Source of the DNA: Pseudomonas hormoni
GTDB lineage: Bacteria > Pseudomonadota > Gammaproteobacteria > Pseudomonadales > Pseudomonadaceae
DNA: 64,000 nt
Direction: 5' to 3'
Assembly (NCBI RefSeq): GCF_018502625.1
Contig: NZ_CP075566.1
Span: 3,954,001-4,018,000 of the forward strand
Position 1 is the stretch's first letter; each line of letters starts with the position of its first letter. The notes beneath the pieces are model-generated. The model was not told the DNA's origin, made no database searches, and saw nothing but the letters and a program-made list of their open reading frames with translations. The translations under genes and the position numbers were made by a program. Of the stretch, positions 1,054 to 13,369 are shown one piece after another.

Positions 1054-1446
1054 ATGCATGAGGTATTCCCCGTGAGTCCAGAACGCGAAGAGATGCTTTG
1101 CAAACCAAATCTCAACCTTTTTCCGAACGCGACAATCGTGGACGGGAGATATTTCTGGGGGTTCGAATGCCTGGATGGTTGGTATGACCTTCTGAACAAC
1201 GCTCTTTCGTTGGTTTCTGCTCGGTGCGAGATTGCCCCAGATTGCGAGCCGGTCACGGTCTTGGAGGTGAAGGAAAAATTCGGTGGCTTGAGAATTTACT
1301 ACCGTGGTGGCGACGACTACGTGTGCGGCGTCTTCAATTTGGCGGAGGTGATGTCGGTGAACATTTGCGCTATCTGTGGCTCACGGGTTGGCAATAGGCG
1401 TATGCACTATCACCACCCGCGCTGCGATTTGCATTACGAGTCCTGA
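1054..1446 (+). CDS. Conserved hypothetical with C-terminal zinc-ribbon-like motif
   Basis: 130 residues. The middle carries VKEKFGGLRIYYRGGDD, a signature I associate with a widespread uncharacterised family found in bacteria and phages. The C-terminus has C-A-I-C-G followed by HYHHPRCDLH, which could bind one zinc ion. No signal peptide or membrane segment is visible. The next gene starts 2 bases after its stop, so the two are probably translated from one message. The ATG at 1054 lacks a strong ribosome site; an internal ATG at residue 14 is an alternative. Molecular role unknown. Confidence 0.6.
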   Translation: MHEVFPVSPEREEMLCKPNLNLFPNATIVDGRYFWGFECLDGWYDLLNNALSLVSARCEIAPDCEPVTVLEVKEKFGGLRIYYRGGDDYVCGVFNLAEVMSVNICAICGSRVGNRRMHYHHPRCDLHYES

Positions 1447-1448
1447 CC

Positions 1449-1928
1449 ATGAAATTTTCCATGGCGAATCAACCTGGATTGCTTGACGCATTGCGTGATC
1501 ATCTAGCAACCGACCAAAAGCTTATCGACATCGAAGGCGCTCGTAGCTACGTTTCGTCCCCTCGCCTGATGGATTTCAGCGTACGAAATTTTCCAGCTGA
1601 AAAGTTTGCTGCTGTTGGCGACACGTTTTTAGATAAGCGAACAATGTTCGCTGACTCCCCCCAAAAAACCTATGGCATCTTTTTGGGTGATTGGGAGGTG
1701 ATGAAGCCGCAACTTGATCTGGTGGACGCCTATTCTCACAACGACACCAGCGTCATCAATGTCCAAGTTTGGGCATTCGATCCCTGCGCTCTCGACGAGC
1801 ACCAGACGAGGCTCGCCGTCGCGCTTTCCTACACGCGATTAGAGTTGTACGCAGAGCCCAGAATCATCGGCGCGCTGAATGACGTTTTGGAAGACGTCGG
1901 CTTATTTGTGGATTGTGAGCGCTACTGA
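1449..1928 (+). CDS. Hypothetical protein, coupled to the upstream gene
   Basis: 159 residues, soluble and mildly acidic, without a signal peptide. I recognise no domain. The frame starts 2 bases after the stop of the 1054 gene, and an in-frame second ATG lies at residue 5. The tight spacing suggests the pair acts together. Pairs of small unknown soluble proteins next to regulators sometimes prove to be effector/immunity or toxin/antitoxin partners, but nothing in the sequence proves that here. Confidence 0.55.
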   Translation: MKFSMANQPGLLDALRDHLATDQKLIDIEGARSYVSSPRLMDFSVRNFPAEKFAAVGDTFLDKRTMFADSPQKTYGIFLGDWEVMKPQLDLVDAYSHNDTSVINVQVWAFDPCALDEHQTRLAVALSYTRLELYAEPRIIGALNDVLEDVGLFVDCERY

Positions 1929-2062
1929 CTGAATGACTTCCCTCCCCTAGGTTGCCTTCCTTCGATAGAAGGGACATGACCGCTTACGCGAAAGCATCCA
2001 GGGCTGCGTGGTGGGTGATAGGATGGGCCAGTGCGATCCTCGACGATACGGGCGGTGCCGCG

Positions 2063-2365
2063 ATGAAAGACATCACGAACAATTCCGATACGCCAGAGGA
2101 AGATCAATACGGGTTTGAACGATTGATGAAAATCAAGGCTTTGAGGAATGAGCGCCTGGCGTTGCAGAGAGAGGGATCGCAAGCTGCGTATGAAGCGTTG
2201 AGCCCAGAGGAAAAGATTCTCGTCGATGAGAAATTTCGAGAAGCAGCTCTGAAAATTGCAGCGCAATTTGGGAGGAGCCGGCCATTCAGATATGAGGGCG
2301 ACCAATCGTTATCGGAAAACTCGACACCCGCCGACGCCCACGATCCAAACGACAGCCGCGACTAG
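2063..2365 (+). CDS. Small charged hypothetical protein
   Basis: About 100 residues from the ATG at 2063. The frame is open from 1952, but the upstream part (AKASRAAWWVIGWASAI) looks less like the rest of the protein. The body is rich in Glu, Arg and Lys and predicted helical (ERLMKIKALRNERLALQRE, PEEKILVDEKFREAALKI), ending in a polar tail. No family recognised. It follows the 1449 gene on the same strand after a gap of about 130 bases. Real gene status is moderately likely; its start is uncertain. Confidence 0.4.
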   Translation: MKDITNNSDTPEEDQYGFERLMKIKALRNERLALQREGSQAAYEALSPEEKILVDEKFREAALKIAAQFGRSRPFRYEGDQSLSENSTPADAHDPNDSRD

Positions 2366-2643
2366 CCACTTTATCAGGGTTTCAAGGCTTATTCGTGCAA
2401 AGTTTGAGGCGTGCTGTAACGCGGTGCTGGATCAAACTGCCTAAGGATAGCCAGGCACCTGTAGTCATGAGCGTTGCACGAACCGGACGCGTCCGACGTC
2501 CGTCAACGAATCGCCAGCCGTGTTCACTGCGGAGGTGATCGCATCTGTAGATACACCGAATTTTTCGCCCCTTACTTGAGTTCATTGCGGTCTTGAACGT
2601 TAACTCTGAAGTAGAAAGATCATACGTACAAAGGAGAAGGCCC

Positions 2644-2889
2644 ATGATCACTGGCTCCAAACTCGACGCCCTCAGACGATCTGTGGTCGTAAACATAAAT
2701 GGCGACTTACTCGACAAGGCCAGGGCGTTGGATATCAATCTCTCCGAGACTTTGGAGCAGACCTTGATTGAAATTTTTGGGCAAAATCGGCGGAAACAAT
2801 GGCAGGAAGAGAATCGCCAGGCGATGAATGCCTACACCGACCATGTCGGAATCCACGGGGTTTTCAGCGACGGCCTTCGGGACTTTTGA
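2644..2889 (+). CDS. ccdA: CcdA-type antitoxin
   Basis: 81 residues from the ATG at 2644, which has a clear AAAGGAG ribosome site; the frame is open to a TTG at 2593 but this start is better. Residues 10-45 (SVVVNINGDLLDKARALDINLS) fit the ribbon-helix-helix DNA-binding part of CcdA. The C-terminus (WQEENRQAMNAY, then HGVFSDGLRDF) is the classic toxin-binding tail of chromosomal CcdA proteins. Normally it represses its operon and neutralises the gyrase poison CcdB. Here the toxin gene that should follow is only a fragment, so this looks like an orphan antitoxin. Confidence 0.88.
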   Translation: MITGSKLDALRRSVVVNINGDLLDKARALDINLSETLEQTLIEIFGQNRRKQWQEENRQAMNAYTDHVGIHGVFSDGLRDF

Positions 2890-2963
2890 ACTTGAGTATG
2901 TGATGTAAGGCGAACCTAATTGCTGAGCTTGGTACGCGGGTAGTGGCGCCCTTTAAAAAGCCA
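2890..2963 (+). pseudogene. ccdB toxin remnant
   Basis: Directly after ccdA, the frame beginning at 2910 translates as ANLIAELGTRVVAPFKKP. This closely resembles the conserved CcdB segment (DVQADLI-ELGTRVVVPL in family members). Just upstream GAT GTA AGG suggests the expected Asp-Val-Gln with one base missing. The roughly 20 N-terminal residues and the C-terminal half, including the gyrase-contacting end, are absent or unrecognisable. No start codon remains. I infer a toxin gene destroyed by deletion and frameshift while its antitoxin stayed intact. Confidence 0.6.
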
Positions 2964-3161
2964 CGGCCAAACGGGGAGGTTCTAGGGGGGAGTGGGACAG
3001 ATCCATGTTCTGCCTGGTGCTATGGCTATAGGACGATCCTTCCGCACGTTAGTTACTCGAAGCGATGAAGCGCACGCCACCTATTAACGCTATGCGCTCC
3101 ACCATCTGAAAACCCAAGCGAGCAGCTCACAGCATGGGTATCCATCATTGCAAAAAAATTA

Positions 3162-3524
3162 TTACTTGAGCCAAGACTCAACGGTCGCAGCGCCGTGCTT
3201 TGCCTTCCACTCTTTCAAGACCTTATGGTTACCGCCCTTCGTTTCCACGGTCTCGCCGTTGTGAGGGTTGGTGTAAACCTTCACTTGACGTGCTCTACGG
3301 GAAACACTCTTAGATTCAGTAGCTACCCCGGTACGGCCACGCTTAGGATCCAGGAGGTTGACCACGTCTCTTAGGCTGTAGCTGTAATCTGCGAGCAACG
3401 CTCTGAGCTTGGTTTCAAACTCGATTTCTTTTTTCAGGCCTGCATCGCCTTTCAGGGCTTCAAGCGCCTGCAACTGCTCTGCTAAATGTTTTTCCAGCTG
3501 ACGAAATTCGGCAAGTTTAGACAT
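3162..3524 (-). CDS. MvaT/MvaU-family H-NS-like xenogeneic silencer
   Basis: 120 residues, the usual MvaT length. The N-terminal half is a coiled-coil oligomerisation region (FRQLEKHLAEQLQALEALKG, then KKEIEFETKLRALL). SLRDVVNLLDPKRGR is the family linker. The C-terminus, with KVYTNPHNGETVETKGGNHK and LKEWKAKHG, is the DNA-binding domain that enters A+T-rich minor grooves. These Pseudomonas proteins bind and silence horizontally acquired DNA. The sequence differs from housekeeping MvaT, so it may be an additional mobile-element-type paralogue. It is monocistronic with an A+T-rich upstream region (3525-3700). Confidence 0.9.
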   Translation of the reverse strand: MSKLAEFRQLEKHLAEQLQALEALKGDAGLKKEIEFETKLRALLADYSYSLRDVVNLLDPKRGRTGVATESKSVSRRARQVKVYTNPHNGETVETKGGNHKVLKEWKAKHGAATVESWLK

Positions 3525-3792
3525 CGATCGCTCCTAAGGTTGAGAGGGAATTGGCAACCAGAACCAATTGTAAAATGAAAGAGTCTGCTCCAATCACATA
3601 TTTCGCATCAAATAGAATTTAGCAGATCTTAATGGTCTTACATACTGGAAAACTATAACAAATAGCCTGCGAACATCTGCTTTTACGTACACTGCACTGT
3701 GAGTAGCGATGCCGAAGAGCACTGCGGAGCGTGAAGTACTGCCTGGGATTAGCGTTACAAAAATACTTCAGGCACCGGTAAAAAATCGAAAG

Positions 3793-4833
3793 CTATTCAC
3801 CGTCTGCCGGACAAACTCCAACTCGATTTCGTCCGCCTCTCTTCGCCAGATACAGTCCTTTGTCTGCCAAGTCGATCAGCATTTTGCAATCCTCGGTCCG
3901 CTCGGGTGACATGGTCGCAATCCCGATACTCACTGTTATTACAGATGTCGGCTCAGGCGAATTGTGCGGGATTTTCAATGCCTCTACTTTTTTTCGAAGA
4001 TTTTCCGCAATCGTCATGGCATCGACTGATGACGTAGCAGGCAAGATCACTGCGAATTCCTCTCCGCCATATCGCGCCGGCAAAAAGGATTCTCCTTCCA
4101 CCGCATCGCGCATTGCACCAGCAACTTTTTTTAAGGTGTCGTCGCCCGCTAAATGCCCAAAGCTATCGTTGAAGCGCTTGAAGAAATCTACATCGACCAT
4201 CAGCAACGAGATCTCTAAGCCTGCTCTGCTAGCGGTTTGCCATTCAGCTTGTAAAAACTCATCGAAATGTCTTCGGTTTGCTATTTCAGTCAGCCCATCA
4301 GAATTGACGAGGCGCTTCAATTCGCCCATTGCTCGCTGCAACGTCAGATTGGTATCGAGCAGCTGCTGCTGGCTCGTTCTCAAAGCGCGATATGTGTGAT
4401 CCAAGCGTCTGGCAGTAACGAAGGAGCGTGAGTGGTAGCGAATCCGAGCTATTAACTCGATGGGATCGGGCAGTTTAACCAAATAGTCATCAGCACCCGC
4501 TTCAAAGGCCCGACTTTTCACGCTCGGATCTTCCTTAACTGACAGCGCGATTATCGGTATCCCTCGGGTAGGGACGTTTTTTCGATACTCCTGGATAAGC
4601 GAAAGCCCATCCAATCCTGGCATGACCATATCTTGGAGAATCACAGTGGGCTTCACCCTCACAGCCTCAATTACAGCCTGGGTCGAATCCGTGCAGTAGT
4701 GAAATTTAAGATCAATTTCACTGGCCAGTTGGCGCCGTACAGCCTCTACAATCATCGGTTGGTCATCGACTATCAAAACTATGACGGTCTCGTCTGAGGC
4801 TTCGTAAAACTCCTGAAGCTTTAAGTCGTTCAT
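3793..4833 (-). CDS. WspR-like response regulator diguanylate cyclase
   Basis: About 346 residues from the ATG at 4833. Residues 17-140 are a receiver domain: acidic pair D23-D24, phospho-acceptor D68 in ILQDMVMPG, and the conserved Lys near LVKLPDP. A helical linker (about 150-185) precedes the GGEEF cyclase domain, with active site RYGGEEF intact and DVDFFKRFND for substrate and metal contact. It should make cyclic-di-GMP from two GTP when phosphorylated. The product-inhibition I-site (RxxD five residues before GGEEF) reads GESF here, so feedback inhibition is probably absent. No wsp chemosensory genes are adjacent, so its kinase is elsewhere. Confidence 0.9.
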   Translation of the reverse strand: MNDLKLQEFYEASDETVIVLIVDDQPMIVEAVRRQLASEIDLKFHYCTDSTQAVIEAVRVKPTVILQDMVMPGLDGLSLIQEYRKNVPTRGIPIIALSVKEDPSVKSRAFEAGADDYLVKLPDPIELIARIRYHSRSFVTARRLDHTYRALRTSQQQLLDTNLTLQRAMGELKRLVNSDGLTEIANRRHFDEFLQAEWQTASRAGLEISLLMVDVDFFKRFNDSFGHLAGDDTLKKVAGAMRDAVEGESFLPARYGGEEFAVILPATSSVDAMTIAENLRKKVEALKIPHNSPEPTSVITVSIGIATMSPERTEDCKMLIDLADKGLYLAKRGGRNRVGVCPADGE

Positions 4834-5084
4834 GCCCCGCCCCATAGCCAACCAAAGGAAAATAAGCCGGGATTCTTTGCTCAACTGTTACAAATCCAGA
4901 TGCAAAAATAATAGAAAGCGAGCACCTATCATTGTTCCGATTTTTGAACTGCAAAGACTCCGCATCTGAAACTATGGCACCTGTACGAATCGACTAACCG
5001 CACAAGGGATCCTGCCAAGCCTCAATGAGATGCATTCGATAAGGCAAAATTTAGACGTGGATGGGATTGCGCACAAGGGAATTA

Positions 5085-5402
5085 CTAGATTGATTCGATC
5101 GAAACCAGCTCAAAATACTTAAATTTTTTCTTCTTCGCTTCTGTCTTTGCTTCCTGTTCGGCGATGAGACTACTCAGAGTGCTCGCATCGTAAACGAACG
5201 TGTCTGCTTTACCTTCGAACTCCGTCGTAACGCGCAAAGTCACCCTCAGCTTTGGCGACCTAGAGGTGGCAACCTTCCGAGCCTTTGATACGTGTTGCGA
5301 GTCCGCTGTGATGCGTGAGTCCTGAACTTCTGGACTTGACTCATTGTTGCCCAAGCCAAAAAGCGCTTGGCGCATTTCTGCCTCGGTAAGATTTTCTTTC
5401 AT
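5085..5402 (-). CDS. Conserved hypothetical protein
   Basis: About 105 residues from the ATG at 5402; an ATG 18 bases upstream is also possible. The N-terminus (LTEAEMRQALFGLG) is helical. The C-terminal half (LRVTLRVTTEFEGKADTFVYDASTLS, split here only for reading, then AEQEAKTEAKKKKF) suggests a small beta-rich domain followed by a lysine-rich helix. I do not recognise a named domain. It stands alone between the cyclase and the MarR regulator, with no operon partner. Function unknown. Confidence 0.55.
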   Translation of the reverse strand: MKENLTEAEMRQALFGLGNNESSPEVQDSRITADSQHVSKARKVATSRSPKLRVTLRVTTEFEGKADTFVYDASTLSSLIAEQEAKTEAKKKKFKYFELVSIESI

Positions 5403-5623
5403 TGAGGTGCCTCGTTGCACTTACGTTGGTTGACCAGATTTTCAAAAATTTGGCATCCAAGCCTGGGTAGGGAATTACCACCAGCCCTACCATTCAGGGC
5501 TAGGTAACAAATCACTGAGGGCCTATTCCCAGTTAATCAGTCCACTATGGACAGCTTGAAAAGAAACAGGGATTTCCCGCTGCCAATCTAATGAGACAAC
5601 AGCCCCCTCAAGAAATTGAGCAG

Positions 5624-6073
5624 TTATTTCTTTTCGATCAGCCGGTCACGGATGCCAGCTACAGCAGCTTGGATCTCCATGATCTTCTCAGTGCTCAATC
5701 CAACGGCATCCTGAATGCAGTTCGGTACTTTAAGGGCCTCTGCCTTGAGTGCCCATCCCGCCTCCGTCAGCTTTACGCGCACCTGACGCTCATCCTGCGG
5801 GTCTCGATTGCGAGTAATCAAACCCGCGCTTTCGAGGCGCTTTACCAATGGAGTGAGCGTACTTGATTCCAGAAACAGCTTGTTCCCTAGATCCTTGATG
5901 ATCTGATCATCCTCGGCCCAAAGCGTCACCATCAACAGATATTGCGGGTACGTCAGGCCGAGCGACTCCAGCATCGGACGGTAGTACTGCGTGAGTGCAT
6001 GACCAGCCGAATAAATCGAGAAGCATAAAAAATCATTCAGCGGCGCGAAGTCGCTTTTGCCTTCTTCTGACAC
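5624..6073 (-). CDS. OhrR-like MarR-family peroxide-sensing repressor
   Basis: 149 residues from a GTG at 6073, chosen because AAAGGAGGG lies just upstream; the longer open frame would run across the divergent promoter. It has the OhrR signature LCFSIYSAGHAL with reactive Cys17, then YPQYLLMVTLW, and a MarR winged helix (LGNKLFLESSTLTPLVKRLESAG, wing at RNRDPQDERQVRVKLT). OhrR repressors release DNA when this Cys is oxidised by organic peroxides or hypochlorous acid. It is divergent from the secreted hydrolase at 6237, its probable target; an ohr gene is not next to it. Confidence 0.88.
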   Translation of the reverse strand: MSEEGKSDFAPLNDFLCFSIYSAGHALTQYYRPMLESLGLTYPQYLLMVTLWAEDDQIIKDLGNKLFLESSTLTPLVKRLESAGLITRNRDPQDERQVRVKLTEAGWALKAEALKVPNCIQDAVGLSTEKIMEIQAAVAGIRDRLIEKK

Positions 6074-6236
6074 CTGAGTCCCTCCTTTAGTCTGAGATAC
6101 CACGTTATTACGTGCACGATTCAATCGCAAGCAATTGACAAAGAATTTTTCCTGCCGCACGATTGCTACCAAGGCGATTCAATCGCACACAAAGTATTTT
6201 CAAACCAACAGTTTTTCCCGACAGGTAGACATCCGC
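6074..6236. promoter_or_regulatory. Divergent promoter region with a 13-bp direct repeat
   Basis: The space between the OhrR-like gene and the hydrolase carries CGATTCAATCGCA twice, at 6117-6129 and 6175-6187. Between them lies TTGACA (6135-6140), a possible -35, and GCACGATTGC (6157-6166), which resembles part of the repeat in inverse. I infer that these are operator half-sites for the MarR regulator; no binding data exist here. Confidence 0.45.
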
Positions 6237-7007
6237 ATGAAAAAGATTTTCTCTGGTTTAGCACTCGCCACCGCACTCCTCGCAGGCGGTATTGCCCACG
6301 CAGCTGACGCAAAGCCAACCATAGTACTGGTTCACGGTGCTTTCGCTGATTCAAGCAGCTGGAATGGCGTTATCAAGATTCTGGAAAAGGATGGCTACCC
6401 AGTCATCGCAGCCTCCAACCCATTGCGCAGCCTCAAAGGTGACGCTCAATCCGTTGCGGAATTGCTGGCATCCATCAAAACCCCTGTTGTTTTGGTCGGC
6501 CACTCCTACGGCGGCCCCGTCATCTCCGAAGCCGCTTACGGCCAATCCAACGTCAAATCGTTGGTTTACGTAGCAGGTGTGGCACCTGAAGCGGGCGAAT
6601 CAACGGCGGATCTGTCCGGTAAATTTCCCGGTGGAACCTTAGGCCCAACCCTTGCGCCACCTGTTGAGTTGGCTGACGGTAATAAAGATCTCTATATCCA
6701 GCAGGACAAGTTCCATGCTCAGTTCGCCGCAGATGTTCCAGCTGCCGAAGCTAAGCTGATGGCCGCGACTCAGCGCCCTGTGACCGCAGAAGCACTCCAC
6801 GAGAAGTCGACTGAGCCAGCCTGGAAAACCGTTCCGTCCTATTTCGTTTATGGCGACCTGGACAAAAACATCCCGGCTCAAGCCCAGGTGTTCATGGCTG
6901 AACGTGCACACGCCAAAGAAGTTGTGAAGGTCAAAGGTGGTTCGCACGTCGTGATGATTTCCAATCCGAAAATCGTCGCCAACTTGATTGAAAAAGCAGC
7001 AAAATGA
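6237..7007 (+). CDS. Secreted alpha/beta hydrolase
   Basis: About 256 residues from the ATG at 6237; the upstream open frame belongs to the promoter. A Sec signal peptide is clear (MKKIFSGLALATALLAGG, cleavage near AHA-AD). The mature protein begins PTIVLVHGAFADSSSW, the oxyanion region, followed by nucleophile elbow GHSYGG and a C-terminal catalytic His in KGGSHVV. This is the EstC/salicylate-esterase-like group often placed next to OhrR- or LysR-type stress regulators. Its substrate cannot be read from sequence. Control by the divergent MarR protein is inferred from layout. Confidence 0.85.
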   Translation: MKKIFSGLALATALLAGGIAHAADAKPTIVLVHGAFADSSSWNGVIKILEKDGYPVIAASNPLRSLKGDAQSVAELLASIKTPVVLVGHSYGGPVISEAAYGQSNVKSLVYVAGVAPEAGESTADLSGKFPGGTLGPTLAPPVELADGNKDLYIQQDKFHAQFAADVPAAEAKLMAATQRPVTAEALHEKSTEPAWKTVPSYFVYGDLDKNIPAQAQVFMAERAHAKEVVKVKGGSHVVMISNPKIVANLIEKAAK

Positions 7008-7521
7008 AATTTCGGGCAGTTGCCAAGAGGCTAATTCGATTGGTAACTGACCGATCCACTAAACGTTCATTTGCTGAAAGCACACCCCAGCAACTCTCTG
7101 ACCAAGGGTTTGATTCACTTCGTAATCAGAATGCTGAGTGGTGCAAGCTACAGGGACTCCGCGGAGAACTCACATCGTTTTGTGATGAGCAGGAAACGGA
7201 GTCTCAGTTTCGATCAGCCCAGCTTCACAAGTTTTTCACATTATCTAACCTACGTTGACTTCGCTCCTTTCTAATTCTGATTTTTTTGCCCGCGCTTAGA
7301 CGCGGGCTTTTCTTTGTCTGCGTGATAGATAGGTGGCTCTCGTTACCTGTCCCAAGGTACCCGTCGACCAAAAAATTGGTGGATGGTCCAAGGCACATTG
7401 AGGGCATCTCCTCACTCTATGGGCCAAGAAAGCGCTTTACTAAATATTTGGTTACAAATAGTGGCGCTTTGCCCGTTATCAAGCGATCATCCGCGCACAT
7501 AAAAAGAATGGATTCGAAAAA
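7008..7521. other. Intergenic region between hydrolase and hxs operon
   Basis: About 510 bases. It contains an intrinsic terminator at 7288-7314 and, beyond it, the likely promoter zone of the hxs operon. An open frame at 7004-7258 exists but shows no ribosome site and no protein-like pattern, so I leave it out. Confidence 0.4.
7288..7314 (+). terminator. Intrinsic terminator
   Basis: GCCCGCG and CGCGGGC form a 7-bp stem around a 6-base loop (CTTAGA), followed by TTTTCTTTG. A T-run also lies on the left side, so it may work in both directions. It separates the hydrolase gene from the hxs operon. Confidence 0.8.
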
Positions 7522-7827
7522 ATGAACTGGGAAGTTACGGTTTCCGTGGACAGCGCGATTTATCCACTGAGCGTTGTTCAGCGCGTTTCCTATGCTGTCG
7601 CACCTACCTTAACGATTCAGGTTCGGCAGACAGACAATCAGATTCATCTCGATGCCGTTCCCACGATGCTCATCGGCGGAGCTGGTGCAGTCATATCCAA
7701 GCAAGAAGGGCGCGAGCTAATTCTCCGCAATCTGAACGATTTCGCGTTGCGCGAGCGCATTCAGATTGAAACCTCTGGGCTGAGGGAAATACTTGCAAAT
7801 GCCGCCCTACGTGGAGCTGGCGTGTGA
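7522..7827 (+). CDS. hxsD: His-Xaa-Ser system protein HxsD
   Basis: 101 residues. It begins with short beta strands (WEVTVSVDSAIYPLSVVQRVSYAVAP in two pieces) and ends in helices with IQIETSGLREILANAALRGAG, the pattern I know for HxsD. No catalytic motif is evident, and its role in the system is not established; it may be an accessory or substrate-presenting factor for the radical-SAM enzymes. It overlaps hxsB by 4 bases (GTGA), so the two are translationally coupled. Identification rests both on the sequence pattern and on its position at the head of hxsBCA. Confidence 0.85.
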   Translation: MNWEVTVSVDSAIYPLSVVQRVSYAVAPTLTIQVRQTDNQIHLDAVPTMLIGGAGAVISKQEGRELILRNLNDFALRERIQIETSGLREILANAALRGAGV

Positions 7828-9314
7828 ACGATATGCTCATAGCCAAAGAGGCCAGCTATCGACTGCTCCCGTTCCGATTTTTGCGGATCGATGAGCACCA
7901 TAGCGAGAGTATTTTGCTAACAGCTGACACAGGCGAGTATCTTTTCGTTTCTGAAAAACAGTTGAAGGATCTCGCCTACAAGGCCGTGGATACAAGCTCT
8001 GCTCACTACAAAGACCTACTTGCCCGCCACTTTGTCTTTGAGCCGAATGTGCACGACCCATTTCCAGAAATGGCGGCGCAATTTAGTAGTCGTAAAAGCT
8101 TTGTCCTCAAAGGACCTGCGCTACACATTTTCGTTGTCACTCTACGCTGCAATCACACCTGCGCTTACTGCCAAGTCTCCCGGGCGCCACTCAGTGGTTC
8201 GGGTCATGACATGTCAGCCGAGCATGCTGAGCTGGCAGTGGATCGAATGTTTGAGGCTCCCTCCCCCGTACTCACCGTCGAGTTTCAAGGTGGCGAACCT
8301 CTGTTAGCGTTTGACCGCATCCGACAAATTGTTGGGTTGGTCGAAGCCCGTAACGCAGTGGAGCAACGCAGCATCCAGTACGTCATCACGACGACTCTCC
8401 ATCACCTGAATGTCGAGATCCTGGATTTCGCCAAGCAACACAACATTCAATTTTCCACTTCACTGGACGGTCCAGAGTTTCTGCACAACGCCAACCGGCC
8501 AACACCGACCAGAGATGCCTACAAGCGAACGATTGAAGGCATCGAACAAGTAAGGGCATGGCTGGGTCACGATGCAGTTTCGGCACTGACAACCATCACC
8601 TCCAAGAGCTTGGAGCACCCTCACGCGATAATTGACGAGTACGTGGCCCAAGGATTCACCAACATCTCTCTGCGCCCCTTGAGCCCGTATGGATTCGCGA
8701 AGAAATCCGCGAAGCGTCTGGACTATTCGATGGATGAGTTCATCGGTTTTTACTTGGAGGCTTTGTCGTATCTGATGAATCTGAATGCTCAAGGGACGTT
8801 CATCTCAGAAGGTTACGCATCACTCCTGCTGACGAACATTTTGACTCCGTTTGCATCCGGCTATGTAGATCTGCGCTCCCCCCTGGGCGCAGGACTGGGA
8901 ACTCTCGTTTACAACTACGACGGCGATGTCTACCCCTCAGATGAATCCCGCATGCTTCTCGAAATGGGTGAGGACGGATTGAAGCTCGGCAGGGTGCACC
9001 AACCTCTGAAGGAGCTGCTCCAATCGCCAGTGATTGATATGTTGCTGTCCGCAGGTGTGGCAGAAGCGTTACCAGGATGTTCTGACTGTGCGCTAGTCCC
9101 CTATTGCGGAGCAGACCCCATTGAGCATTTTGCCCGCCAAGCGGATCCGATCGGACACCGCGCATTCAGCAGCTTCTGTCAGAAAAACACTGCATTGCTC
9201 ACGCACCTTTTTCGCTTGCTGCGTGATGGGGACAGCGAGACTCAAAAAACCCTTTTGTCCTGGCTAACGCGTAGATCTTTGAGCGCCCTTCCCTCACCTG
9301 GTTATAGGGGCTAA
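7824..9314 (+). CDS. hxsB: Radical SAM maturase HxsB
   Basis: 496 residues from a GTG overlapping the hxsD stop. The radical-SAM cluster motif CNHTCAYC gives C109, C113 and C116 for the SAM-binding 4Fe-4S cluster; FQGGEPLL follows as the SAM-contact GGE motif. The C-terminus carries a SPASM-like set of cysteines (CSDCALVPYCGADP and a later Cys in SSFC) for additional clusters. Related SPASM enzymes modify ribosomally made peptides, so the inferred substrate is the His-Ser-Ser repeat protein HxsA. The exact chemistry is unknown. The enzyme is cytoplasmic. Confidence 0.93.
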   Translation: MNDMLIAKEASYRLLPFRFLRIDEHHSESILLTADTGEYLFVSEKQLKDLAYKAVDTSSAHYKDLLARHFVFEPNVHDPFPEMAAQFSSRKSFVLKGPALHIFVVTLRCNHTCAYCQVSRAPLSGSGHDMSAEHAELAVDRMFEAPSPVLTVEFQGGEPLLAFDRIRQIVGLVEARNAVEQRSIQYVITTTLHHLNVEILDFAKQHNIQFSTSLDGPEFLHNANRPTPTRDAYKRTIEGIEQVRAWLGHDAVSALTTITSKSLEHPHAIIDEYVAQGFTNISLRPLSPYGFAKKSAKRLDYSMDEFIGFYLEALSYLMNLNAQGTFISEGYASLLLTNILTPFASGYVDLRSPLGAGLGTLVYNYDGDVYPSDESRMLLEMGEDGLKLGRVHQPLKELLQSPVIDMLLSAGVAEALPGCSDCALVPYCGADPIEHFARQADPIGHRAFSSFCQKNTALLTHLFRLLRDGDSETQKTLLSWLTRRSLSALPSPGYRG

Positions 9315-9316
9315 AG

Positions 9317-10555
9317 ATGCTACGACTCGACACGCAATTTGAGATTCTCAATCTCACGGCACCCAAGCTATTCAAAGTCATCACTCCAGAAGAATTCATT
9401 TCCCAAGGTGTGGCCGTGTGCGCAGGTGAAGCTTCTTTTGATGACTTAATGCTATGGCTCGACCAATCCTCCACCGCCAATCTGTACCAATGGCTCTCAG
9501 TTCCTGTTGGTGGTTTTTTGGTATCAGGCCACCCGCATCCAGTAGGTCCCATAAGCGCAGCTTTGTTGACCAATCCCAAAGATCCATTGGTCGTGCAGCC
9601 TGGAGATGTCATCGCGGTTAGACCTGGAACGAGCGTCGTACGTGTTCTCTATCGCAGGGGTGCCAATAGCAATCTGTTGTTCATGACTGATCGATGCAAC
9701 AGCCTATGTCTGATGTGCTCTCAGCCCCCAAAGGACATCGATGACAGGTGGCACATCGAGGAGAACCTGAAGCTAATTGACTTGGTCGACCCGGGGGCCG
9801 AACAACTGGGTATAAGTGGCGGAGAGCCCACGCTGTACCGGTCGGGCTTGCTCGCCATCATTGAGCACGCCAAACGGGTACTGCCTGAAAAATCCTTGCA
9901 CATTTTAAGCAACGGTCGGTTGCTGAGTGATCCCACGTGGATCGATGACCTTCGACAAGTAAGTCACCCAAGTCTCAGTTGGGGCGTTCCTCTGTACGCC
10001 GACAATGCAGAGGACCACGACAACGTCGTCCAAGCCCCAGGCGCATTCAGCGAAACAATAGTCGGCCTCTACAACCTCCAACGCGCGGGGCAAAAGATAG
10101 AAATCCGCATGGTACTGAGCAGGCTGACGACGCCTCGGCTTCCCGAGTGGGCGCATTTCGTTTTTCGTAATTTGCCTTTCGTGCACCACGTTGCGCTCAT
10201 GGGTATTGAGAACACGGGGCTCGCTAAGAAAAATTACGATCAGCTCTGGATAGACCCGGCGGACTACCAGGAAAAGCTCAGCCGGGCAGCTTTTTTCCTC
10301 GACATCCGCGGCATCGCTGTTTCGATTTACAACCTGCCTCTATGCGTACTCGATCCGATGCTAGAGCGCTTCTACCGGCAGAGTATTTCAGACTGGAAAA
10401 ACCTGTTTATCGATGCCTGCCAAACGTGCTCGGCTACTCACGCATGTGCGGGCTTCTTCAAATCACATTCATCTCGCTGGCAAAGCCGGAGCATCCATCC
10501 GCTAACCATCGAAGATCTTCAAAATATGCAGGGAGCACAGTATGAAACTGCTTGA
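9317..10555 (+). CDS. hxsC: Radical SAM maturase HxsC
   Basis: 412 residues, starting 2 bases after hxsB with AGGGG upstream. The radical-SAM motif CNSLCLMC gives C127, C131 and C134, followed by ISGGEPTLYR. A C-terminal cysteine group (CQTCSATHACAGF) may hold another cluster. About 120 residues precede the motif and may form a substrate-recognition domain. It is a second, distinct radical-SAM enzyme of the same system, so two chemically separate or sequential modifications of HxsA are plausible. Its 3' end overlaps hxsA by 14 bases. Confidence 0.93.
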   Translation: MLRLDTQFEILNLTAPKLFKVITPEEFISQGVAVCAGEASFDDLMLWLDQSSTANLYQWLSVPVGGFLVSGHPHPVGPISAALLTNPKDPLVVQPGDVIAVRPGTSVVRVLYRRGANSNLLFMTDRCNSLCLMCSQPPKDIDDRWHIEENLKLIDLVDPGAEQLGISGGEPTLYRSGLLAIIEHAKRVLPEKSLHILSNGRLLSDPTWIDDLRQVSHPSLSWGVPLYADNAEDHDNVVQAPGAFSETIVGLYNLQRAGQKIEIRMVLSRLTTPRLPEWAHFVFRNLPFVHHVALMGIENTGLAKKNYDQLWIDPADYQEKLSRAAFFLDIRGIAVSIYNLPLCVLDPMLERFYRQSISDWKNLFIDACQTCSATHACAGFFKSHSSRWQSRSIHPLTIEDLQNMQGAQYETA

Positions 10556-11171
10556 TCGTTGGAAGCTTCTGATCGGCCAATCTATGGCCTTGATCCCCGT
10601 TATCGGTAGCCCTATGGCAGATGCCAGCACGACTCAATTGGCATCGGCTGACTGGTTGCCGAATCCCCACAGTGCTCCGCCTGCATTCAACAACACCCTG
10701 AATGCGAAAGACGCGATCAACGTCTACGCAGGACATAGCTCACACAGCTCGCACAGTTCACATAGCTCGCATAGTTCTCACTACAGCAGTTCGGGTGGTT
10801 ACAGCGCTCCAAGCGCCTACACTGCGCCAACCAGCAATTTTCTTTCGTCGCCTTCAACACCCAGCACTACGACTCACTCCACCGTCAGCACACCGAGCAC
10901 GACATCTTCCAAGCCTTCTACCAGTACGGCAACGCGATCGAATGTCTACTCAGCCACACCTGCCAAGCCCACAGCAGCGGATCTGTCGATGCTTGTTCGA
11001 CGTGTTCAATTGGCTTTGATGATCAAAAAATATTACGCGGGGCCGATCGATGGGGTGCTCAATAACAGTGTCCGTGGATCACTCATGGCTTTCCAAACAG
11101 ATTCGGCGATTGTAAGCAGTGGCAAGATGGATACACCGACGCTAAACGCATTGGGCATTGCCATCCCATAG
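10542..11171 (+). CDS. hxsA: His-Xaa-Ser repeat protein HxsA, the likely maturase substrate
   Basis: 209 residues, beginning inside the end of hxsC with GGGAG upstream. Residues about 10-28 are hydrophobic and may be an export or membrane segment (LIGQSMALIPVIGSPMADA). Residues 65-79 are five exact His-Ser-Ser units followed by H-Y-S-S-S-G-G-Y. A Ser/Thr/Pro-rich linker runs to about residue 150. The C-terminus (LVRRVQLALMIKKYYAGPIDG, then MAFQ and TPTLNALGI) fits a peptidoglycan-binding domain 1 fold. I infer an exported protein with a radical-SAM-modified repeat and a cell-wall anchor. Confidence 0.92.
   Translation: MKLLDRWKLLIGQSMALIPVIGSPMADASTTQLASADWLPNPHSAPPAFNNTLNAKDAINVYAGHSSHSSHSSHSSHSSHYSSSGGYSAPSAYTAPTSNFLSSPSTPSTTTHSTVSTPSTTSSKPSTSTATRSNVYSATPAKPTAADLSMLVRRVQLALMIKKYYAGPIDGVLNNSVRGSLMAFQTDSAIVSSGKMDTPTLNALGIAIP
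10734..10781 (+). repeat. His-Ser-Ser codon repeat in hxsA
   Basis: Five consecutive 9-base units encode His-Ser-Ser, plus a final His codon. Both CAT and CAC, AGC and AGT, TCA, TCG and TCT codons are mixed. The protein repeat is therefore exact while the DNA is not, which points to selection on the peptide rather than recent slippage. Confidence 0.9.
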
Positions 11172-11220
11172 CTCTAAATCAAGGCGCTATGGTGAGTCAG
11201 GAATGGATATCTAAAGATCT

Positions 11221-11412
11221 TTAGATTTCTGTGCAGGAGTCTGTGAACTCAGCAAGTTCTGTGTACGCTTGCACATAGGCTGCATCGGCGCGATCCAATT
11301 CATCCTGTAGCGCTTGGTTTTTTGAAACCCTGATAGCTATCATCTGCCGCGCCAATCGAGCGCGCTTAACTGCGTCAACATACGGTTTCAGGCGCTCGGA
11401 ATCCATCAGCAT
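11221..11412 (-). CDS. Small helical hypothetical protein
   Basis: 63 residues from the ATG at 11412, which has GAGGGCGG upstream; the frame is open a little further. The protein is almost wholly helical (SERLKPYVDAVKRARLARQM, then KNQALQDELDRADAAYVQAY) and may form a short coiled coil. No family recognised. It lies convergent to hxsA with 49 bases between the stops, and downstream of the DUF2188-like gene on the same strand. Confidence 0.5.
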   Translation of the reverse strand: MLMDSERLKPYVDAVKRARLARQMIAIRVSKNQALQDELDRADAAYVQAYTELAEFTDSCTEI

Positions 11413-11453
11413 ATATGAACCGCCCTCAAGGTGAGTGCCCAATCCAAGGTCAT

Positions 11454-11663
11454 TCAGGAGCAGAGCTTACCTTCCTTAAACCTTAATTCCTGGAAGCTGC
11501 CGTCAGCCGAAAAGATTCGGACCGACGCTGTTTCTTTAATCAAAATTTCCGCCGACATCCTCACAATATCTTCTTTAGCCTGTGCCTCAAGCTTCGCTCG
11601 TTGTGACCCGCTTCTGTAAAGCCCCCAACCGCTGGAGGTTTTCAATATCGAATAGACATTCAT
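11454..11663 (-). CDS. DUF2188-like small protein
   Basis: 69 residues. The pattern (Y-S-I-L-K-T-S-S-G-W-G-L, then a helix with AKEDIVRMSAEIL, then SVRIFSADGSFQELRF) matches the small DUF2188 fold: strand, strand, helix, strand, strand. A paralogue with the same pattern sits at 58099-58335. These proteins are common in Pseudomonas and have no established function. It precedes the 11221 gene, with about 40 bases between them. Confidence 0.65.
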   Translation of the reverse strand: MNVYSILKTSSGWGLYRSGSQRAKLEAQAKEDIVRMSAEILIKETASVRIFSADGSFQELRFKEGKLCS

Positions 11664-12119
11664 GTCACTCGCCTATTCCAAAAAATAAGAGGCACTGTCG
11701 ACCTTATGATAGGTGTAACGAAGATTTAATCCGGAAATGCATTTAAATACTATCTATTCCCGAGCTGCGATTCTAGCCCCAAACCTAACGCTTTTTGGGC
11801 CCTACCCAGTTCATTTTTATGAATAATTCCGCCAAGCAAAATAATAGATAATTTTACAACTATTAGTCTGAACAATAGTCCTCGCAATCAATTCAACATT
11901 GCTCTGAGAAAAATTCACACATGACGAAAAATTTAATTCATAAGCCAACTAGTTCTCTATTGGAGCAAAGGATGAATCCAGCTGCGCAGAAGGTGACCAT
12001 GAAATTGGCCTTGAGCTAGCAGACCCTCATTCCGAAATGTAAGCACTCACCTTAAGTCGATTAGCCGTTTCCGGTGAGGCGTCAGGGTCGATCAGGTGGT
12101 TCTGCCGAACGGCGCTTGC
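11664..12119. other. A+T-rich intergenic region before dmeR
   Basis: About 450 bases with a marked A+T-rich stretch at 11700-11950. I see no supported gene, RNA or terminator. It would contain the promoter of the leftward small genes and, at its right edge, the dmeR control region. Confidence 0.4.
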
Positions 12120-12142
12120 ATAGGTATAGGGGGTATACCTAT
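12120..12142 (+). promoter_or_regulatory. Palindromic operator of the dmeRF operon
   Basis: Half-sites ATAGGTATA and TATACCTAT are perfect reverse complements around a GGGGG core, 29 bases before dmeR. Operators of RcnR/CsoR-type metal sensors typically combine a G-tract with flanking inverted repeats. A second G-tract (AAGGGGTATCCC) lies right at the start codon. I infer autorepression by DmeR relieved by cobalt or nickel. Confidence 0.75.
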
Positions 12143-12171
12143 GATGACGCTATAAACGTAAGGGGTATCCC

Positions 12172-12447
12172 ATGGGTCATATAGCTTCCAACAAAAACGA
12201 TCTTCTCAAACGAGTTAAGCGGATCGCTGGACAGATCCAAGCCGTTGAGCGTGCGCTGGAGTCTGATCTTGACTGCGCTAAAACCTTGCATTTGGTAGCA
12301 GCCACACGTGGAGCTATCAATGGTTTGATGGAAGAGATCATCGAGGACCACGCCCGGGAGCATGTAGCAAACCCTGCCCTCAGTGAAGAAGAGCGCAACA
12401 AAGGTGTCGAGGAGCTTCTCGAAGCTATTCGCCGCTACTCCAAATGA
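12172..12447 (+). CDS. dmeR: RcnR/CsoR-family metal-responsive repressor (DmeR-like)
   Basis: 91 residues, all helical. LLKRVKRIAGQIQAVERALE is the family's first helix. C35 in DLDCAKTLH and H60 in EDHAREH fit the metal-ligand positions of RcnR/FrmR-type proteins, with an N-terminal His3 (MGHIAS) as in Ni/Co sensors. The protein should bind the palindrome at 12120-12142 as a tetramer and release it on Co(II) or Ni(II). The partner efflux gene starts 20 bases downstream. A formaldehyde-sensing FrmR role is less likely because no formaldehyde dehydrogenase is adjacent. Confidence 0.85.
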   Translation: MGHIASNKNDLLKRVKRIAGQIQAVERALESDLDCAKTLHLVAATRGAINGLMEEIIEDHAREHVANPALSEEERNKGVEELLEAIRRYSK

Positions 12448-12466
12448 AGTCGATAGGTATCGGGTC

Positions 12467-13369
12467 ATGAGCAGTTCCAGTGTCAGTCACATACACCAAC
12501 ACGTCTTCCTTGGGTCTGCCCACGAAGAAAACGCCAAGCGCACCCTTTGGGTGGTAGCCCTGACAGTGGTGATGATGGTTGGCGAAATCACCGCCGGCTA
12601 CATAACCGGCTCCATGGCGTTACTTGCCGATGGCTTTCACATGGCTACCCATGCCGGCGCCTTGGGTATAGCTGCTGCGGCTTACGGATACGCAAAGCGC
12701 CATGCCACCAGTCAGCGCTATAGCTTTGGCACGGGCAAAGTGGGCGACCTTGGTGGGTTCGCATCGGCGCTCATTTTGGGCATGGTGTCCCTGGGCATCG
12801 GCGTAGAGTCCGTAATGCGCCTGTTGCAGCCAACTGAGGTGCAATTCGGCACTGCAACGCTCATCGCGATTGTCGGTTTGATCGTCAACGTTGTCAGCGC
12901 CCTGCTGCTTGGCCACGGTCACAATCATGACCACGCGCATGATCACCACGGCAATGACAACAACCTAAAATCCGCTTACGTGCATGTCATCGCGGATGCC
13001 CTGACCTCCGTTCTAGCCATCGTGGCCTTACTCGCTGGCCGGTATCTAGGATGGGTATGGCTGGATCCGGTCATTGGCATTGTCGGCGCTATAGTCATCG
13101 CGCGCTGGGCATGGCTCCTGATGGGTGCTACTTCGGCAGTGCTGCTGGATCAAACCGATGAGCACGTCGCCGAGGAAATACGGGAGCTAGTTGAAAAGCC
13201 TGGCGACGCAACCATCACCGACCTACATGTTTGGAGGGTGGGACCCGAGGCCCATGCGGCGATCGTCAGTGTCATGGGCCAGTCCTCGACCAATGCCGAA
13301 AGCATTCGTGAACGCCTCAAGTCTGTTCACGAAGTTAGCCACCTGACGGTCGAATTTCGCCCCGTCTGA
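12467..13369 (+). CDS. dmeF: CDF-family Co/Ni efflux transporter (DmeF-like)
   Basis: 300 residues from the ATG at 12467. It has the cation diffusion facilitator layout: six membrane segments, with metal-site motifs LLADGFHMATH in TM2 and VIADALTSV in TM5. A histidine-rich cytoplasmic loop (HGHNHDHAHDHH) lies between TM4 and TM5, and a C-terminal metal-regulated domain (ITDLHVWRVGPEAHAAIV) follows. It is an inner-membrane proton antiporter that exports divalent metal. The upstream DmeR-type regulator and the His-rich loop favour Co(II)/Ni(II) over zinc; selectivity is inferred. Confidence 0.9.
   Translation: MSSSSVSHIHQHVFLGSAHEENAKRTLWVVALTVVMMVGEITAGYITGSMALLADGFHMATHAGALGIAAAAYGYAKRHATSQRYSFGTGKVGDLGGFASALILGMVSLGIGVESVMRLLQPTEVQFGTATLIAIVGLIVNVVSALLLGHGHNHDHAHDHHGNDNNLKSAYVHVIADALTSVLAIVALLAGRYLGWVWLDPVIGIVGAIVIARWAWLLMGATSAVLLDQTDEHVAEEIRELVEKPGDATITDLHVWRVGPEAHAAIVSVMGQSSTNAESIRERLKSVHEVSHLTVEFRPV

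Follow-up and report, generated by a model that had tools for sequence, protein, structure and literature searches.

The 64,000-nucleotide stretch of Pseudomonas hormoni DNA analysed here (the window; positions 3,954,001 to 4,018,000 of contig NZ_CP075566.1) carries, at 7522-11171 on the + strand, a complete copy of Hxs, a known system described from genomes, in which the genes hxsD, hxsB, hxsC and hxsA encode a small protein, two radical S-adenosylmethionine (SAM) maturases and a His-Xaa-Ser repeat protein. As a tentative account of its function, we propose a mobile cassette resembling those for ribosomally synthesised and post-translationally modified peptides (RiPPs), which may yield a modified wall protein whose rings, linking His(i) to Ser(i+2), would be made before export. 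The four genes, in window coordinates, are as follows.

7522-7827, + strand: hxsD, 101 amino acids (aa), ATG start; predicted beta-alpha-beta-beta-alpha; TIGR03976 51.8 bits, narrowly above the cut-off of 50
7824-9314, + strand: hxsB, 496 aa, GTG start; radical-SAM maturase; TIGR03978 573.4 bits, cut-off 370
9317-10555, + strand: hxsC, 412 aa, ATG start; second radical-SAM maturase; TIGR03977 381.4 bits, cut-off 267.9
10542-11171, + strand: hxsA, 209 aa, ATG start; His-Xaa-Ser repeat protein without Cys; TIGR03979 162 bits, cut-off 121.65

A first-pass annotation, made from the sequence letters, had placed a complete hxsDBCA operon at these positions, and the coordinates in the list of open reading frames (ORFs) agree with it, including a 4-base overlap between hxsD and hxsB, a 2-base gap between hxsB and hxsC and a 14-base overlap between hxsC and hxsA. 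Its assignment to the Hxs families was borne out by the profile search with TIGR03976-TIGR03979, in which all four proteins exceeded the curated NCBIfam cut-offs, and the two cluster motifs it named, CNHTCAYC in HxsB and CNSLCLMC in HxsC, are both present and conserved in 80 of 81 and 80 of 80 alignment rows, respectively. Pfam placed radical-SAM cores in both HxsB and HxsC, and the profile search of the genome found one HxsA above cut-off. The annotation went too far in calling this an undescribed biological system: Hxs is catalogued in NCBIfam, and in the accessible text of PMC9062424 the motif is attributed to Haft and Basu, with HxsB and HxsC named as putative maturation enzymes. The analysis is of value for an anatomy by which the chemistry becomes testable, and not for a new kind of system. 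The annotation's remark that no product structure is established holds for the open PubMed Central (PMC) literature, where none is described; subscription papers lay outside that scope, and a solved structure could exist there. The hxs genes are listed in a Pseudomonas aeruginosa genome (accessible text of PMC8446631), and Hxs occurs in one Vibrio parahaemolyticus strain where another strain carries galactitol genes (accessible text of PMC6537148); the accessible portions of these three papers give no product chemistry.

For comparison, a set of 81 loci was formed from the window and, out of 562 hxsB loci that had been confirmed, the best 80. The hxsC gene is present in 80 of them and a match to the HxsA profile in 74, and HxsD matches total 65; 37 proteins matched HxsD at E <= 0.001, several of them labelled HxsD by their source. 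By profile, hxsA lies 3' of hxsC at 61 loci and 5' of hxsD at 13, with no match at the other 7. A scan limited to + strand ORFs lying between 3.5 kb upstream of the hxsB start and 2.6 kb downstream of its end detected an ORF with HxS repeats close to hxsB in 78 of the 81 loci. The exceptions are L081, which has neither hxsC nor a repeat ORF, and L105 and L107, which lie near contig ends.

Repeat core and flanking elements of HxsA

The following features were located in HxsA.

10542-10625, + strand: signal-peptide-like N-terminus, residues 1-28, by a home-made heuristic
10698-10733, + strand: pre-core element LNAKDAINVYAG, residues 53-64
10734-10787, + strand: repeat core (HSS)5HYS, residues 65-82 (H65-S82)
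10995-11153, + strand: peptidoglycan-binding domain PF01471, residues 152-204, 28.3 bits, cut-off 23

Repeat runs at the 81 loci were detected by His at a period of three, and 8 runs, from 7 ORFs, were removed before counting because fewer than half of their third positions are Ser. In the 82 runs that passed this Ser filter, the third position is Ser in all 501 units, while the second is occupied by Ser (234), Arg (159), Tyr (69), Ala (21), Gly (13), Asn (2), Thr (1), Val (1) and His (1). Among 120 HxsA homologues, to which no Ser filter was applied, the third position is Ser in 714 of 715 units and Thr in one; these homologues are the best 120 of 604 matches and are thus biased to close relatives. 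As in triceptide-type motifs, His 1 and Ser 3 are fixed and position 2 is free. Since the repeat ORF is linked to hxsB at nearly all loci and the repeat is conserved to such an extreme degree, HxsA is very probably the substrate of the Hxs radical-SAM enzymes. At locus L110, a Patescibacteria contig, two HxS precursors (2578-2826 and 4649-4903) flank hxsC and have Gly at most middle positions.

All six Ser codons are used at the third position across the loci (AGY 108, TCN 393), and the second-position Ser codons divide into 177 AGY and 57 TCN. In the window repeat, the second-position Ser is always AGY, and the third-position Ser is TCN in the five HSS units, not in the last unit. The mix of six codons at the third position therefore shows, as judged from related and hence not independent sequences, that the repeat is maintained by selection on the protein. 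The same mix rules out recent repeat expansion at the DNA level as the source of the regularity; the position-wise codon bias is only a tendency across loci.

The sequence before the core is conserved in register with it among the 120 homologues, with Ala at -2 in 117, Tyr or Phe at -3 in 105, Asn at -5 in 88 and Gly at -1 in 49. An LN pair lies further upstream in 90 of the 120, against a mean of 10.7 after shuffling, and the consensus reads PLNxxxxN-L-[YF]-A-[GAS]. Because the frequent Gly at -1 has no C-beta, this element is more likely to be a docking signal than part of a ring.

Export and wall binding of the window HxsA are probable from its predicted termini. The signal-peptide heuristic was positive for 97 of the 120 HxsA homologues, as well as for the window HxsA, and for 2 of 37 HxsD, none of 120 HxsB and 4 of 80 HxsC proteins. 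When 39 diverse precursors were picked from 80, PG_binding_1 was found in 22 and PG_binding_2 in 4, two counts that may overlap. Cys is absent from the window HxsA and from 112 of the 120 homologues, which speaks against an obligatory thioether; thioether chemistry was rejected as the general product on these 120 homologues, which lean to close relatives, while 23 of 80 precursor ORFs in the more diverse locus set do contain Cys.

Enzyme anatomy, proposed mechanism and alternatives

The features of the two radical-SAM enzymes are listed below.

7866-8099, + strand: putative RRE-like beta-beta-beta-alpha-alpha-alpha domain, HxsB residues 15-92
8148-8171, + strand: CNHTCAYC radical-SAM motif, HxsB C109/C113/C116; the one alignment row without it is gapped there
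8937-8942, + strand: S372-D373 of HxsB; S372 aligns with Cys276, an Aux I ligand of anSME (4k37)
9078-9179, + strand: Aux II-type cysteines C419, C422, C428 and C452 of HxsB, in 81, 81, 81 and 80 of 81 rows
9695-9718, + strand: CNSLCLMC radical-SAM motif, HxsC C127/C131/C134
10343-10447, + strand: probable auxiliary-cluster cysteines C343, C368, C371 and C377 of HxsC, each in 80 of 80 rows

A RiPP recognition element (RRE) is expected to run through three strands and then three helices. The N-terminal part of the HxsB model has strands at 17-21, 30-34 and 39-42 followed by helices at 44-51, 60-67 and 80-92. The top structural match of the whole HxsB model is CteB, tied with the anaerobic sulfatase-maturating enzyme (anSME), and its alignment to CteB (5why), a comparison of the whole model and not of the domain alone, starts at residue 15. 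The HxsD model has a different order (strand, helix, strand, strand, long helix) at a mean predicted local distance difference test score (pLDDT) of 86.5, and it does not show the RRE fold.

The full seven-Cys SPASM motif, as defined in PMC6231123, was found in neither enzyme; outside the radical-SAM motif, HxsB and HxsC each have only four invariant or near-invariant cysteines. In the 81 HxsB rows, the column of S372 holds Ser in 75, Ala in 4 and Thr in 2, never Cys, and that of D373 is Asp throughout. From alignment and model, HxsB reads as an RRE-like domain, a radical-SAM core and a half-SPASM domain in which auxiliary cluster II (Aux II) is kept and auxiliary cluster I (Aux I) lost. HxsC has an eighth Cys-bearing column, that of A185, with Cys in 48 of 80 rows and Ala in the window protein.

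In the proposed mechanism, the HxsA precursor would begin with an N-terminus resembling a Sec signal, followed by the short conserved element and the (His-x-Ser)n core, and would be docked by the N-terminal RRE-like domain of HxsB. HxsB would act in the cytoplasm together with HxsC and with HxsD as a small partner; it would abstract hydrogen in each triplet, probably at Ser C-beta, and His(i) would be joined to Ser(i+2) to build a ladder of three-residue rings. Once modified, HxsA would be exported and kept at peptidoglycan by its C-terminal domain, and the His-dense rigid segment at the wall would probably bind metal or another ligand; metal in particular is doubtful. By analogy with bufferins, modification must precede export if the scheme is right. 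The conservation pattern makes modification at the His and Ser of each triplet rather likely, and a strict His(i)/Ser(i+2) pair with a free middle is, on the analogy of triceptides, the signature of i/i+2 links. The accessible text of PMC11002830 describes three-residue cyclophanes in which HaaB links C2 of His to C-beta of Ala and MscB links C4 of Phe to C-beta of Ser, and thus a His-Ser link would need no unprecedented partner. We regard such a cross-link as possible, with the doubt somewhat outweighing the support. A still more specific version is on the whole rather unlikely: that an exported wall protein, rather than a released peptide, would be turned into a ladder in which His-Ser rings of three residues follow one another directly; that HxsB, as the lead enzyme, would carry a mirror-image Twitch domain, with Aux II kept, Aux I lost and Ser in place of an Aux I Cys next to the invariant catalytic Asp; and that the products would form a class of surface-displayed His scaffolds, made rigid by enzymes and disseminated on plasmids and phages.

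Several observations weigh against the cross-linked wall protein. Against the known cyclophane-forming families, HxsB falls far short of every cut-off compared (YhhB 60.6 against 445, GrrM/OscB 55 against 310, AmcB 49.3 against 425, FxsB 42.4 against 370), its best non-Hxs family is the ranthipeptide maturase PapB (96.9 against 340), and the ligands that hold Aux I in a complete SPASM domain are missing from it. The Ser-oxidising anSME has the same Asp next to the Aux I site, and on this sequence feature a non-crosslinking oxidation fits as well. The signal-peptide test is a home-made heuristic, and wall binding is not general, the repeat ending at most 7 residues from the C-terminus in 15 of 80 precursors. 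Cys occurs in 23 of the 80 precursor ORFs of the locus set; some of these ORFs were extended upstream by first-start calling, an explanation that does not cover the short ORFs of L092, L099, L102 and L110. Finally, when the flanking ORFs of the 81 loci were clustered and the representatives of clusters present in at least 4 loci were inspected by eye, with no family search, no recurring metal gene was seen beside hxs.

If HxsB instead acted like anSME, the C-beta of the third-position Ser would be oxidised to an aldehyde, as in formylglycine, which would remain single or react with His or the wall, and HxsC would perform a second step. We consider this unlikely on balance; it is nevertheless a serious rival to the cross-link, because HxsB falls so far short of the cyclophane cut-offs and keeps an anSME feature. 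Oxidation of Ser alone leaves the retention of His at i alongside Ser at i+2 unexplained, the score of HxsB against the anSME family (TIGR03942) is 73.2 with a cut-off of 349.45, and the cysteines of the anSME Aux I site have no counterparts in HxsB. A non-crosslinking edit of another kind, stereochemical or otherwise (epimerisation, desaturation or methylation), is less likely again, since epimerisation would not need an invariant spacing of His and Ser and HxsB is nearer to CteB and anSME.

Compatible with the cross-link, and doubtful in itself, is a single modification by HxsB and HxsC acting as one complex, in which only one of the two enzymes would supply the radical chemistry. The two genes occur together in 80 of the 81 loci, and each protein keeps one radical-SAM motif and one set of four cysteines. 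In the accessible text of PMC12093266, the thuricin CD enzymes TrnC and TrnD, both radical-SAM proteins, act as one complex, and therefore two such enzymes need not mean the two different or sequential modifications that the first-pass annotation took them to suggest. Against a single complex, HxsB and HxsC match different families and do not resemble a recent duplicate pair. The alternative to any chemistry on HxsA, namely that this His-rich protein binds metal at the wall in unmodified form while the radical-SAM enzymes have some other target, is consistent with its tight His runs, its wall domain and the metal-sensing repressor and cation efflux genes downstream (12172-13369). It is highly improbable given that a repeat ORF accompanies hxsB so regularly, including in Myxococcota, Bacteroidota and Melainabacteria entries, that chelation would not require Ser at every third position of 501 units, and that the search for metal-gene neighbours described above tells against it as well.

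Genomic surroundings and spread of the cassette

Two features were placed upstream of the genes.

7288-7307, + strand: terminator-like hairpin, 7 pairs, all G-C, with a T-rich tail, separating an upstream hydrolase gene from the hxs unit
7444-7521, + strand: 5' edge of the conserved cassette, from one comparison, with locus L035 (Pseudomonas sp. GM79)

The hairpin is a pattern match only, the scan having returned 6 hairpins in total against a shuffle mean of 5.5, with no enrichment. On inspection, Shine-Dalgarno-like stretches were seen before hxsB (GGAG, 7813-7816), hxsC (AGGGG, 9306-9310) and hxsA (AGGGAG, 10530-10535), and none was seen upstream of hxsD. A 79-aa ORF with a TTG start (7286-7525) overlaps the hxsD start by 4 bases. 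The G+C content is 0.49-0.52 per 5-kb step over all 64 kb, whereas 12 other 10-kb stretches of the genome average 0.597; the whole window (1-64000) is therefore an AT-rich region, probably an island or part of a large one. The same region contains an MvaT/H-NS-type xenogeneic silencer gene (PF22055) at 3162-3524 on the - strand. About 1 kb 3' of the unit, at 12172-13369, the gene for a metal-sensing repressor (PF02583) adjoins a cation efflux gene (PF01545), which we take to resemble a Co/Ni efflux pair. These metal-resistance genes were dropped as a candidate part of the system, as no metal-like neighbour was seen by eye to recur and locus L035 shares only the cassette with the window.

The nearest named locus, in Pseudomonas sp. 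UYIF39, is 97.4% identical over window positions 1257-12429, and the next, L035, aligned over 7444-11170 only (75.8% identity, E <= 1e-10). The conserved unit in this second pair is the four genes and about 80 upstream bases. Among 398 genomes sampled from the genus, 51 have an HxsC above cut-off, and HxsB exceeded its cut-off in 8 of the 95 genomes searched as relatives, its own genome included; the cassette is therefore patchy. In two of the genus genomes, short low-scoring matches (G043:C1:291787-291975 and G026:C43:534476-534898) are possibly remnants of hxsB, and in L056 (3133-4635) hxsB is in two pieces. A tree of 80 HxsB rows places the window, with support, in a set of 29 rows that come mostly from Pseudomonas and include a Vreelandella and a Pantoea entry, and a Paenibacillus entry is placed among Lysobacteraceae; these off-taxon rows may reflect transfer or contamination.

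Relatives of hxsB (E <= 1e-80) were found in 320 plasmid records; 254 of these plasmids are typed as conjugative and 296 come from Klebsiella, and an Aeromonas plasmid has the order hxsD-B-C-A. Two phage records matched hxsB at E <= 1e-40, and in one of the two, from a Leptospira phage, the order is hxsA-D-B-C (L145, 5260-8569). On a Klebsiella IncN conjugative plasmid, the only Klebsiella plasmid inspected, hxsDBC lies between mercury-resistance and transfer-type genes (L144, 5723-9592), and the precursor-like ORF after hxsC (8407-8643) stops before any HxS repeat.

Hxs is thus widespread, in the genus and on plasmids, with a product undescribed in the open PMC literature. The window copy is compact and complete, and it predicts a residue pair per triplet, an enzyme with an RRE-like domain and a missing cluster. 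If the cross-link is true, a wall-bound protein would join the substrates of radical-SAM enzymes and HxsB would represent a SPASM variant with Aux II only.

Comparison with known systems

The triceptide systems (XncB, OscB, MscB, HaaB and YhhB) resemble Hxs in using radical-SAM enzymes and in fixing i and i+2 around a free middle, and the accessible text of PMC11002830 offers one precedent for His at i and another for Ser at i+2. Hxs differs from them in the low scores of HxsB against the cyclophane families, in a SPASM domain of which just the Aux II half is kept, in having two radical-SAM enzymes plus HxsD, and in a substrate that is long, apparently exported and often wall-bound. With anSME, HxsB shares its fold and alignment, the Asp beside the Aux I site and a likely Ser target; it differs in the absence of the Aux I cysteines, in an extra, putatively RRE-like N-terminal domain and in an unrelated substrate. 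The CteB/PapB thioether maturases of sactipeptides and ranthipeptides resemble HxsB in combining a radical-SAM core and a SPASM-type domain with an RRE domain, which in HxsB is putative; with Cys missing from the window HxsA and from 112 of the 120 homologues, however, thioether formation cannot be what Hxs does in general.

According to the accessible text of PMC12452194, Sec signal peptides are rare among bacterial RiPPs and bufferin precursors have one, and Hxs would have in common with bufferins that the modified precursor carries a signal peptide of Sec type. Bufferins bind copper and are modified by MNIO enzymes at Cys motifs, whereas Hxs has radical-SAM enzymes, His and Ser, and a wall-binding domain; both enzymes of the hxs unit are radical-SAM proteins, and the unit has no MNIO (DUF692) enzyme. 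From the catalogued Hxs systems (TIGR03976-TIGR03979) no essential difference was found, all four components exceeding their cut-offs within one tight unit, and what is particular to the window copy is its AT-rich region and a long form of HxsA with a C-terminal peptidoglycan-binding domain.

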